DNA of 37,451 nucleotides from a bacterium. Lineage in GTDB: Bacteria; Patescibacteriota; Minisyncoccia; Phycocordibacterales; UBA9973. A program made the position numbers and the translations under genes. Positions 29,645 through 37,451 of this stretch are shown one piece after another. Position 1 is the first letter of the stretch. Every line of letters begins with the position of its first letter. The notes below the pieces were generated by a model, which worked only from the letters and a program-made list of their open reading frames with translations, was not told the DNA's origin and did no database searches. The DNA is taken from assembly GCA_027484965.1 (NCBI GenBank), contig JAIXRY010000016.1:1-37451 (forward strand), given 5' to 3'.

Positions 29645-29652
29645 AAAATAAC

Positions 29653-29683
29653 TTGTTTTCTAAGTATTAACCACTTACTTTTG
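29653..29683 (+). promoter_or_regulatory. Candidate rightward promoter for the repressor
   Basis: TTG (29653-29655), a 20-nt spacer and TACTTTTG (29676-29683), an exact TAnnTTTG match. It would give an 80-nt leader before ATG 29771. Confidence 0.6.
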
Positions 29684-29750
29684 ATGTGTAATTCATACTT
29701 GAATACAAACGTAGTTGTTAACAAGTTAAAAACCAAACATAAACCACTTA
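29669..29750. repeat. AACCACTTA direct repeats flanking the promoters
   Basis: Exact 9-bp copies at 29669-29677 and 29742-29750, 73 bp apart (about seven helical turns). One overlaps the -7 box of the rightward promoter, the other lies just upstream of the -33 box of the leftward one. Confidence 0.55.
29706..29737 (-). promoter_or_regulatory. Candidate leftward lytic promoter with operator
   Basis: On the minus strand TTTG (29734-29737), a 20-nt spacer and TACGTTTG (29706-29713). The palindrome TTGTTAACAA (29715-29724) sits in the spacer and is a candidate operator. Confidence 0.7.
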
Positions 29751-29770
29751 AAAATCAACATTTTTAAAAA

Positions 29771-30226
29771 ATGAATGCAGAACAGCGTGTAAATCTGATG
29801 TTTATCCAGTCAGGAATGACCAAAAAAGAATGGTCTAGTATAATTGGGATTCACGAAAACAACATAATAGCTATTATTAAGGGAAGGAAAAACGCTACAC
29901 CTGCTATTATGAAGAAAATAGCTGAAGCTTCTCCAGAATATAACCCTGATTGGGTAATTCGAGGGCTTGGCGCTATGCTTACCGATGGCACTCCAGAGCC
30001 TTCGGTTGCAAATTCGGTTGCACAAAATGAACCTGAAAACGAGGCTATAAGTGTTAAAATGCTTGATTTTGTAATGAAGGAAAATGCTTATTTAAAGGCT
30101 AAACTAGACGAGGCACTCGCTATTATAGGTAATCAAGCAAGATTATCGGGAAAGCTTAACCTGCAACCGAATGCTGGTTATGCTAAAGAAGTAAAGTTCA
30201 TTCCTGAACTTGCTTCGGTTGCATAA
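29771..30226 (+). CDS. CI-like repressor (XRE-type HTH)
   Basis: A 151-residue protein. Residues 1-70 are a helix-turn-helix domain (FIQSGMTKKEWSSIIGIHENNIIAIIKGRKNATPAIMKKIAE) followed by NPDWVIRGLGAML, the usual end of phage repressor DNA-binding domains. The rest is a linker and a short coiled coil (FVMKENAYLKAKLDEALAII), probably for dimerisation. There is no S24 peptidase domain, so RecA-driven self-cleavage is not expected. The segment coding SVANSVA and the terminal SVA stop contain integrase-arm-like repeats. Confidence 0.8.
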   Translation: MNAEQRVNLMFIQSGMTKKEWSSIIGIHENNIIAIIKGRKNATPAIMKKIAEASPEYNPDWVIRGLGAMLTDGTPEPSVANSVAQNEPENEAISVKMLDFVMKENAYLKAKLDEALAIIGNQARLSGKLNLQPNAGYAKEVKFIPELASVA

Positions 30227-30239
30227 TCGGTTGCAGTAG

Positions 30240-30265
30240 GCTTTAAAATGCCAATATTTTAAAGC
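30240..30265. repeat. 10-bp perfect hairpin after the repressor
   Basis: GCTTTAAAAT pairs with ATTTTAAAGC over a 6-nt loop, 13 nt after the repressor stop. No T-run follows; it may bend or mark the P arm, or end the mRNA. Confidence 0.6.
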
Positions 30266-30269
30266 TAAC

Positions 30270-30332
30270 CAGCTGAATACCAATAATTTGTTCGATTCCC
30301 GTACGGGCTACAAAACACTAGGTATTTAGCTG
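30270..30332. repeat. 12-bp inverted repeat symmetric about the att core
   Basis: CAGCTGAATACC (30270-30281) and GGTATTTAGCTG (30321-30332) pair with one mismatch. The centre (30301) almost equals that of the palindrome CCCGTACGGG in the core. Confidence 0.6.
30290..30315 (+). other. attP core: 3' end of a tRNA gene
   Basis: TTCGATTCCCGTACGGGCTA reads as tRNA T-loop (TTCGATT), 3' T-stem (CCCGT), 3' acceptor strand (ACGGGCT) and discriminator A. The 5' T-stem is not complementary (AATTTG), so this is only the part restored on integration. The host tRNA should start with AGCCCGT; I cannot name its amino acid. The core lies 100 nt before the integrase gene. Confidence 0.78.
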
Positions 30333-30356
30333 AAATACAACAGGTTACGACAAAAC

Positions 30357-30378
30357 AGAGGCATTAGCCTCTTTTTTT
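30357..30378 (+). terminator. Intrinsic terminator between attP and integrase
   Basis: AGAGGC pairs with GCCTCT around ATTA, followed by six or more T. It prevents repressor transcripts from reading into the integrase gene in the circular form. Confidence 0.85.
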
Positions 30379-30414
30379 ATGCAACCGAATTTTCAACCCT
30401 TTACTACCTCGTAA

Positions 30415-31572
30415 ATGAAAGTTCTTTTTTGGCAGCGCAAGAATGCTGCAAATTCAAAGGGCTATGCTCCTTTATACGTTAGGCTTACTTTATCAGGTGA
30501 GCGATTAGAATGGTCCACTGAAATTTCATGCCCAATCAGCCATTGGCAGCCAAAGCAGCAACGCTGCAAGGGCAATAATGGCGAAGCGATTAGTATCAAT
30601 CAGCAATTAGAAACAATAAAAGCAAGGCTTTTATTGGCTGAAACGAAAATAAAACTAGAAAACGGTGTAATAAGTTTGGCAGAAATTCGCAAGAATTACG
30701 AGTACAAGCAGGAAAAAAGCCACAGTTACCAAAAGCTTTGTAGTGAATTTATAAGAATAAGGTCAGAAAGTGGGCTTTTTGCGCCAAATACAGAGCGAAG
30801 CGTTAAAGTAAGAATTGGTATGTTTTTAAACTTCTTAGCAAGCCAAGGAATTACGAATTTGAGAGTACCGAATTTAAAAACAGAAATGCTCTACCAGTTT
30901 CAAGACTGGTGCGATAAGCAAGAATATAGCCTAGTAGTAACTACTAGAGCTATCAGGCAAATCAGTTGTGTTCTAAGATTCTGCAAGGATCGTGGAATAA
31001 TAAACACCATACCAGAACTCAATTATAGGCCAAGAAAGATTTCAGGCAAGGAAATAATCTTCCTTACTGAAGATCAGATCCAGCGATTTAGCAACTTAGA
31101 AGTTGCAACGCTGGATGAGCAAAAGGCAAAGGATCTATTCCTTTGGCAAGTGTACACTGGTATGGCATACCAGGATGCACAAAACTTTAAGGTAGCCAAC
31201 ATTAAATATTTTAAGGAAAAGAAAGCAATTCTAATGCAGCGTCAAAAAACGTCAGAAACGTTTTTTGTTCCACTTTTCAAGCAAGCGGAAGACTTGTTGC
31301 TAAAGTGGAACAATTCTCTTCCACGCCTTACAAATCAAGGCTTTAATAGGATTTTAAAGCGATTAGGTAAGCGAATAGGTTTTGAAGGTAGCCTTACTAC
31401 GCACGTAGCTAGGAAAACTGCTGCAACCTATTGGATAAACAACGGAGTTGATTATAAAATTGTAAGCAGATTGTTAGGCCATAAAAATAGCCTCGTTACA
31501 GAGGCTATATATGCGAAAATCAGTGTTGAAACTATACTGAAAGAAACGGAGCATCTTAATAAGGCAGCATAA
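30415..31572 (+). CDS. int: Tyrosine integrase (Bacteroidota type)
   Basis: A 385-residue recombinase. Residues 1-90 form the arm-binding domain of Bacteroidota integrases (VRLTLSGERLEWSTEISCPISHWQ), about 105-205 the SAM-like core-binding domain, and 215-385 the catalytic domain with H330xxR333 (THVARKT), His356 (LLGHKN) and the nucleophile Tyr366 (EAIYAKI). The box I arginine is Ala251 (YTGMAYQDA), as the corresponding residue is substituted in IntDOT-like enzymes. It would join attP to a host tRNA gene. The 3' end overlaps the convergent tail gene by 17 nt. Confidence 0.93.
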   Translation: MKVLFWQRKNAANSKGYAPLYVRLTLSGERLEWSTEISCPISHWQPKQQRCKGNNGEAISINQQLETIKARLLLAETKIKLENGVISLAEIRKNYEYKQEKSHSYQKLCSEFIRIRSESGLFAPNTERSVKVRIGMFLNFLASQGITNLRVPNLKTEMLYQFQDWCDKQEYSLVVTTRAIRQISCVLRFCKDRGIINTIPELNYRPRKISGKEIIFLTEDQIQRFSNLEVATLDEQKAKDLFLWQVYTGMAYQDAQNFKVANIKYFKEKKAILMQRQKTSETFFVPLFKQAEDLLLKWNNSLPRLTNQGFNRILKRLGKRIGFEGSLTTHVARKTAATYWINNGVDYKIVSRLLGHKNSLVTEAIYAKISVETILKETEHLNKAA

Positions 31573-35543: not shown

Positions 35544-37451
35544 TACGATGTGCCGAAAATTCTAGGGTTAACACGATTATTTGTAACAGGAATACCAGAA
35601 GGATAACGAGCATCTAAAGCATCGTCTAGGAACTTGGCTTGCGTTTGATACGAAAGAACTAACGCTTTTTCGCGTGGGTTCTGAAGTAGCATCTTAATAG
35701 CTTGTAGCTCTGTTAAAATAGCTAAGTCAAGGCTAGAAGTATTCAGCCTTGGTGGCATTTTCACTGTGCTACCACCATCGGCAAAAGCCGCCATTTTTGA
35801 GCTGCTTTTTCTACCAGTTCTGAAAGCTTCAATCATTCTTACAGAATCCGCTACTAGCGGTTCTGAAAGCAAATAGTTAGGCACAATATATTCGGCACCT
35901 TTTTCGCCTACTAGGGCGTAGTAAGGTTTAGAAACTACACCACCATCTGCAATACTGCCACCAGTTTGAGCAATACCAGGTATTGCCTTGGTGGCACCAC
36001 CAAGTGCAAATGCTGGTGGCTCGGGTGGTGCTTGGCTATCAATTAAAGCCAATTGGCTACCAGTAGTAATAGCAGCCAAAGCGATACCAATTACAGGCGT
36101 GAATTTGATACTTAGATCCATGGCTAGAAGAGCGCCTTTAATTAAGGCCTCAATTCTTGCCATCTGCTGCCTTTTCTCAAATAGAGCCACCTCCATTTGA
36201 TACTGTTTTAAGGCATACTCCTTTTCAATACGATCCTTTTCAGAATTATACTTTTCCTCAGTGATAGTCTTGGCATCAAGGCTATCTTTGAGGTGTTTTA
36301 ATTCAGCATTTTTTACCCTTTTCAACTCATTCATAGAGTTGTTATAATCAGCTTGTTGTTGGTTTGCGATAGCATCCAACATCATAAAAAACACGTTTGC
36401 AATATCATTTGCAGCCTGTACGGCTGCCTCTACCTCAGCTTGGTAGGTGTTTTCAGCCTGATTTTTAACATCTGCATAATATTCATTGGTAAGGTTTGCT
36501 TTATCCCTTAAAAAATTCTCATGCAGAATTTTTTGTTGCTCTACATCGTCTTTTGCAGCCTCCAAACGAATAGCATATTCGGTTGTAAGCTGTTTCATTC
36601 TGCCCTTAAAAAGGTCAGCTTCAGCGGCATTGTATTCTTGCGCGGTAGTGGCTTGCGCCTTTCTTCTCTCAGCTGTAGCCACTTCCAAAGCAGCCTCATT
36701 AGCAAGTTCTGTACTTAGTTCTTGTAAAAGTTCTTGCTGCCTTTCAGCGTGGTAGCCTTTTTCATCGGCTGCTATTTCCTCAAGCTTGCGCTTGTACTTT
36801 TGCATAGCTTCACTTTCAACCATAGAAAGCAGCTTTCTATCGCTTATACGCCTACGAGCTTCTTCAACCTCCCTGTCTGCTACGGTTGCAGCTTGCGCCC
36901 GTTCACGGTCGTATTTATCAACAATAGAGGCATTATATTCATCAACTGCCCTATCTTCAATAGCCCGAATTTCATCCAAGTATTTTTCATTACGTTTCTT
37001 GGCTTCTTTTAATGCCTTAGCTTCTGCTTTAGCCTTTTTTGAAGCTGCTTTATCATCGCCAAGTGATTTGTATTCTTTGGTTTCTCCGCTTGCTTTCTTA
37101 GGTCCAGAAGCTACATTTTCCTGCATCCCAAAGGCTTTTTGAAAATCAGCTTCATAGGTTTTCATTTGCTCTAAAGCTGCTTTTAAATCACCATTTCTAA
37201 GGTCTTGCGCTCTTTTAGCCCAATTACCAATTACAAATTGGTCTTGATCAAGGCTCGCTAACAATCTTTTTCTTTCAATCTCTAATTCTTCATTATCAGT
37301 AAACTGCTTATTTCTTAATTGCTCAATCAATTGAGCAGATTGCTGCTCACTGGTCAAGCCTTCTTTTAAAATAAGACCTAACTTTTTTCTGCTTTTAGCA
37401 ATTTTCTCATCCCTTGAAATAGTTCTTTCTGCTGCATAGCCTTCAAATTCA
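35543..37451 (-). CDS. Tail tape measure protein, C-terminal part (continues at window base 1666-1)
   Basis: The ORF track starts this at 37357 from a TTG, but the frame is open through 37451 and continues into the 1-1666 segment, so the TTG is not a real start. Long coiled coils (AELKHLKDSLDAKTITEEKYNSEKDRI) are followed by two membrane-like stretches (MDLSIKFTPVIGIALAAITTGSQLALI) and the typical tape-measure C-terminus FALGGATK ... GGVVSKPYYALVGEKGAEYIVP. The last 119 bases (37333-37451) duplicate the window start. The stop overlaps the next tail gene start by one base. Confidence 0.93.
   Translation of the reverse strand, partial: EFEGYAAERTISRDEKIAKSRKKLGLILKEGLTSEQQSAQLIEQLRNKQFTDNEELEIERKRLLASLDQDQFVIGNWAKRAQDLRNGDLKAALEQMKTYEADFQKAFGMQENVASGPKKASGETKEYKSLGDDKAASKKAKAEAKALKEAKKRNEKYLDEIRAIEDRAVDEYNASIVDKYDRERAQAATVADREVEEARRRISDRKLLSMVESEAMQKYKRKLEEIAADEKGYHAERQQELLQELSTELANEAALEVATAERRKAQATTAQEYNAAEADLFKGRMKQLTTEYAIRLEAAKDDVEQQKILHENFLRDKANLTNEYYADVKNQAENTYQAEVEAAVQAANDIANVFFMMLDAIANQQQADYNNSMNELKRVKNAELKHLKDSLDAKTITEEKYNSEKDRIEKEYALKQYQMEVALFEKRQQMARIEALIKGALLAMDLSIKFTPVIGIALAAITTGSQLALIDSQAPPEPPAFALGGATKAIPGIAQTGGSIADGGVVSKPYYALVGEKGAEYIVPNYLLSEPLVADSVRMIEAFRTGRKSSSKMAAFADGGSTVKMPPRLNTSSLDLAILTELQAIKMLLQNPREKALVLSYQTQAKFLDDALDARYPSGIPVTNNRVNPRIFGTS
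37333..37451. repeat. Terminal direct repeat, right copy
   Basis: Identical to bases 1-119; see the left copy. Unique genome length is 37,332 bp. Confidence 0.95.

Follow-up and report, generated by a model that had tools for sequence, protein, structure and literature searches.

Predicted integrase arm-type sites of a lambda-type attP extend into an upstream HTH regulator gene in a putative Bacteroidota-type temperate phage

The integrases of CTnDOT and NBU1, which are conjugative elements and not phages, are tyrosine recombinases of Bacteroidota (Bacteroides) that use several arm sites. The target used by NBU1 is a tRNA 3' end (PMC10865867). In the attP of the Cluster K mycobacteriophage CrimD, pairs of putative 11-bp arm sites are followed by a core, a terminator, an inverted pair and int, and the attP of Pixie has six predicted arm sites in mixed orientation (PMC3203893). 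The repressor ORF of phage BPs contains the attachment core, and its protein product is truncated upon integration (PMC4557955). At KplE1 intS, the int promoter overlaps attL and is repressed by Int (PMC2951348).

We analyzed one stretch of DNA, a contig of 37,451 nucleotides (here, the window), around its integrase gene. We consider it highly probable that positions 30001-30401 form the lambda-type attP of a Bacteroidota-type temperate phage, that the left arm runs into the upstream HTH gene, and that this overlap is tolerated. An integrase with an arm-binding domain adjoins the site, and a repeated arm-type motif lies on either side of the core, as expected of a lambda-type attP.

As in CrimD, pairs of predicted arm sites of about 11 bp flank the core upstream of int, and a terminator-like stem-loop lies between the core and the right arm. 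The window differs from the Cluster K phages CrimD and Pixie in host phylum and in motifs, and the excerpted account of Cluster K attP regions makes no mention of an overlap with the repressor gene, which the window does have (PMC3203893). The window resembles BPs in that the putative repressor gene, the predicted attP and int are adjacent and point in one direction, with attP overlapping the repressor ORF. Unlike in BPs, the core begins at 30290, 64 bp past the stop codon of an ORF that ends at 30226, and integration would leave the protein unchanged; integration-dependent immunity of the BPs type was rejected on this position of the core outside the ORF. The window is like KplE1 in the overlap between an attachment region linked to a tRNA and an expression signal of the recombination module, although the sequence overlapped in the window is coding DNA of the upstream HTH gene, and a right-arm int promoter is only presumed. 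Several predicted arm sites are shared, by description, with CTnDOT and NBU1, and a putative tRNA-end target with NBU1. The Duneviridae phages (Flavobacterium 6H and laban6-1; Cellulophaga Ingeline) have a similar module order, with a small regulator-type gene upstream followed by left arm, tRNA-end core, hairpin, arm pair and int, as well as convergent late genes and a left arm that reaches the upstream ORF, but their motifs are others (TGACAC and CCCACAAA), they have fewer left-arm sites, and their primase and integrase are only distantly related to those of the window.

Features of the predicted attP region in the window, followed by the corresponding layout in related loci. In the layout rows, starts of arm copies, core, hairpin and int are counted from the final base of the stop codon of the upstream gene, and (-) marks inverted copies.
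Feature or locus	Position	Strand	Remark
HTH regulator gene, putative lysogeny repressor	29771..30226	+	151 aa; HTH domain matches
Distal left arm site 1	30001..30010	+	exact TTCGGTTGCA; inside HTH ORF
Distal left arm site 2	30013..30022	+	exact; 12-bp period; inside HTH ORF
Inverted left arm site	30162..30171	-	exact; inside HTH ORF; encodes LQPN
Proximal left arm site	30214..30223	+	exact; last three sense codons of HTH ORF (SVA)
Proximal left arm site	30226..30235	+	ATCGGTTGCA, one mismatch; first base is last base of TAA stop
Perfect AT-rich inverted repeat	30240..30265	.	GCTTTAAAAT-gccaat-ATTTTAAAGC; between the HTH stop codon and the core
attP core, tRNA 3' end from T-loop onward	30290..30313	+	GTTCGATTCCCGTACGGGCTACAA; 24-nt identity to L023
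Intrinsic-terminator-like hairpin and T tract	30357..30379	+	stem 30357-30372; between core and right arm
Right arm site	30380..30389	-	exact motif match
Degenerate second right arm site	30392..30401	-	AAGGGTTGAA, 6/10; 12-bp period; within inverted repeat
Tyrosine integrase (int)	30415..31572	+	N-terminal arm-DNA-binding domain; Pfam and PHROG matches
Layout, window	-224, -212, -64(-), -11, +1, core +64, hairpin +131, +154(-), int +189
Layout, Mea-Yong924-1	+7, +18, hairpin +137, +193, +204, int +237
Layout, 6H	-10, core +45, hairpin +90, +186, +198, +217(-)
Layout, laban6-1	-14(-), -2, core +42, hairpin +95, +194, +206, +225(-)
Layout, Ingeline_1	-34, core +26, hairpin +75, +181, +193
Layout, L055 and L059	-41, core +24, hairpin +60, three copies from +170
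Layout, L064	+11, core +76
Layout, L090	+98, core +166
Layout, L049	+29, +40, core +80

The ends of the contig share a 119-bp direct repeat (1-119 and 37333-37451), which makes a closed circle of 37,332 bp probable. On the plus strand the HTH gene is followed by the core, the terminator-like hairpin and the integrase gene, and the large genes converge on int. The integrase matched Phage_integrase (6e-17) and Arm-DNA-bind_5 (1e-10), both over the Pfam cut-offs, as well as the PHROG integrase family (1e-34), and its matches among phages were in Bacteroides and Phocaeicola phages. The primase matched Flavobacterium, Cellulophaga and Porphyromonas phages and the Microcystis phage Mea-Yong924, with 43% identity to Mea-Yong924-1 and 24-30% identity over about 55-60% to 6H, laban6-1 and Ingeline. 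The 16S sequence of the bin that holds the contig (L007) is Patescibacteria-like, judged by eye, and the contig is probably a Bacteroidota-type temperate phage mis-assigned to that bin. A search of genome contigs gave one weak locus, in a Bacillota MAG, and the viral contig set held no close relatives of the HTH protein, the integrase or the primase.

The preliminary description had counted six copies of a 10-mer within 389 bp. Six is the number of the 9-mer TCGGTTGCA, all of whose copies lie in 30002-30388 with none elsewhere in the contig, whereas the full 10-mer TTCGGTTGCA is exact in five and has one mismatch in the sixth (ATCGGTTGCA). The layout of two tandem pairs with a 12-bp period and two inverted singles was borne out by the motif positions, except that the right-hand inverted copy, alone as an exact match, is accompanied by a degenerate partner, again with a 12-bp period (30403-30380 reads taAAGGGTTGAAaaTTCGGTTGCA on the reverse strand). 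The SVANSVA pair does lie in coding sequence, as had been proposed, but four copies and not two are wholly inside the repressor ORF, and of the two copies said to span its stop codon (TAA, 30224-30226), the first ends before the TAA and the second overlaps it by a single base. The expected rarity of the 10-mer also held, with no further copy outside 30001-30389 in the 796-kb assembly; since the phage contig seems mis-binned, this count describes the Patescibacteria-like bin and not the true host. When we simulated 300 random 37-kb genomes with the dinucleotide make-up of the phage and scored 9-mers with at least three G/C, the maximum for any 9-mer was four copies per ~400 bp, reached in 3 of the 300, compared with six here. 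The cluster, the Arm-DNA-bind_5 integrase, the tRNA-end core and the geometry of relatives agree in making the proposed integrase arm-type sites very likely, with binding itself a prediction.

The HTH gene product matched HTH_19 (E = 5e-5) and HTH_3 (E = 4e-4), both short of Pfam's curated cut-off, and a PHROG transcriptional repressor family (3.5e-5); its putative role as the lysogeny repressor is suggested by domain and position only. AlphaFold prediction from the single sequence gave a mean pLDDT of 39.9. Arm-site DNA encodes both the SVANSVA segment and the C-terminal SVA of this protein. TCG accounts for 4.6% of the phage's serine codons, yet it is chosen at all three SVA tripeptides (TCG-GTT-GCA), and the probability of TCGGTTGCA given SVA is 0.0067 at each of the three sites. 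At the inverted site starting at 30162, the codons CTG-CAA-CCG-AAT have a probability of 0.0018 given the amino acids. This use of rare codons points to selection on the DNA at the sites within the ORF, in agreement with the earlier suggestion that the repressor's protein sequence is bound by DNA-level needs, here at the SVA and LQPN sites.

The core is identical over 24 nt to a stretch that completes a tRNA-like T-arm and acceptor 3' strand in L023; we therefore interpret it as the 3' end of a tRNA gene, a usual target of integrases of this kind. Neither the remainder of the bin nor 240 genomes of the bin's phylum contained the core sequence, and the window itself gave no ARAGORN tRNA and no Rfam match. 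L023 (positions 1-60 carry the match) is a viral contig unrelated to the window, with a serine recombinase gene and the shared tRNA 3' end at its edge; this type of tRNA end may serve as a target for different mobile elements. The inverted repeat at 30240-30265 has 10-bp arms and a 6-bp spacer, is unique in the window and folds with its flanks at -11.1 kcal/mol, and the fold of the terminator-like hairpin has -9.3 kcal/mol (z = -5.0).

Related phages have a common order with other motifs: an upstream gene, a left arm, a core resembling a tRNA 3' end, a hairpin, tandem arm copies with an 11-12-bp period, and int. We found this order in 6H, laban6-1, Ingeline_1, Mea-Yong924-1, L049, L055, L059, L064 and L090, some of which are IMG/VR contigs. 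The aligned integrases of these relatives are only 18-19% identical to that of the window (TGMAYQD in the window aligns with TGLRVSD in laban6-1), so the comparison rests on architecture. Relatives likewise have hairpins at the equivalent place, in the stretch from core to right arm; those of laban6-1, 6H, Ingeline and L055 were overlooked by the terminator scan and revealed by folding. In L055, L059, L064 and L090 the HTH match of the upstream protein exceeds the Pfam cut-off; in 6H and laban6-1 it is weak, and none was found in Mea-Yong, Ingeline and L049, where "regulator gene" denotes position only. A second distal pair, lying 200 bp further out, is missing from every relative examined, which makes the role of the sites at 30001 and 30013 less certain than that of the others.

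We also surveyed 54 related integrase loci, all with sufficient upstream sequence, for at least three copies of a 9-mer that included a tandem pair spaced 10-14 bp. Thirteen of the 54 had such repeats, compared with 1 of 1080 shuffles; the thirteen are not independent cases, since eight of them have the motif GTTTCCCCA in common. This motif, or TGTTTCCCC, is shared by L055, L059, L060, L064, L073, L081, L090 and L092, where three copies stand in tandem ahead of int and a further one lies about 210 bp upstream; the upstream ORFs of these contigs differ, with an HTH or a HIRAN domain where Pfam matched. In 6H (L027), laban6-1 (L029) and Ingeline_1 (L028), the right arm pair falls within the annotated or open 5' end of int, where it reads as a peptide repeat (DTLFDTL in laban6-1, PQIDPQI in Ingeline). 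The start of int may have been set too early, or arm sites may be coding there as well.

Across the window and its relatives, the distance from arm to core is stable at about 40-75 bp, and in the GTTTCCCCA group it is 65-68 bp whatever the position of the upstream stop codon, which ranges from 41 bp past the arm start to 98 bp ahead of it. The arm therefore holds its place relative to the core, and it is the upstream gene whose end shifts. The left arm overlaps the upstream ORF in the window, 6H, laban6-1, Ingeline, L055 and L059 and lies wholly downstream of it in L064, L090, L049 and Mea-Yong. It had been proposed that the repressor and the P arm are one piece of DNA. As a rule this is not supported, given that sliding stop codon, but part of the left arm is indeed coding DNA of the HTH regulator gene under a constraint at the DNA level, as codon use indicates. 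The overlap looks like an optional compaction, common but not required, of which the window is an extreme case; the arrangement is real and mostly ordinary, given the same compact layout in related phages.

An effect of integrase binding on repressor transcription, as raised in the preliminary description, is possible. A functional coupling of the two elements is possible but unlikely. Repressor transcription running across the P arm would, in the lysogen, block assembly of the excisive intasome, Int bound within the ORF would block repressor transcription, excision and repressor expression would be mutually exclusive, and integration would in addition separate the repressor mRNA from the downstream hairpin. 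Four sites wholly within the ORF, kept through rare codons, would fit this reading, as would the recurrence of the overlap in laban6-1, 6H, Ingeline, L055 and L059 and the repression of an overlapping promoter by KplE1 Int at arm sites (PMC2951348). However, the fully downstream arms of L064, L090, L049 and Mea-Yong indicate that overlap is not needed, and the KplE1 precedent concerns an int promoter and not a coding region. Somewhat more doubtful is a two-way switch, in which repressor transcription through the P arm would prevent excision and Int at the four in-ORF sites would stall repressor transcription; if it were true, one stretch of DNA would couple excision to loss of repression.

That the repeats are instead operators through which the HTH protein regulates its own gene is very unlikely. 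The HTH gene does adjoin them, but the sites are non-palindromic, lie at the 3' end of the gene and beyond the core instead of at the promoter (there are no TCGGTTGCA sites in 29645-29770, on the promoter side), and flank the core and the int start just as other motifs do in relatives. Least probable of all is that the in-ORF copies merely encode a repeated SVA tripeptide or arose by chance with no role in recombination: 12-base-period TCGGTTGCA pairs do occur in repetitive viral coding sequence (the tandem pattern was found in 14 contigs of the viral set and, among the matches listed, in coding sequence with no visible integrase link), but here there are copies outside the ORF and inverted copies, rare codons are used, and such a cluster appeared in none of the simulated genomes.

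Under the reading that we prefer, a lambda-type attP whose overlap with the HTH gene is tolerated, the predicted order would be a left arm of two tandem pairs and one inverted site, a core at about 30290-30313, the hairpin, the right arm pair and the start of int. The N-terminal domain of the integrase would bind the TTCGGTTGCA sites and the catalytic domain would act on the core in lambda fashion. The left arm may overlap the 3' half of the HTH gene because the module is compact, and this would be tolerated, not required, with rare codons spelling the sites in the middle of the protein and at its end. Integration would leave the HTH gene and the left arm at one end of the prophage and int at the other, behind the restored tRNA, the hairpin and the right arm.

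For a group of Bacteroidota temperate phages that has received little study, the analysis predicts arm sites and an attP; arm motifs change completely here and geometry stays. It also indicates that recombination sites can be accommodated at the end of a regulator ORF, where they are read as protein sequence. Cultivable relatives such as 6H, laban6-1 and Ingeline thus make it possible to test for interference between transcription and recombination.
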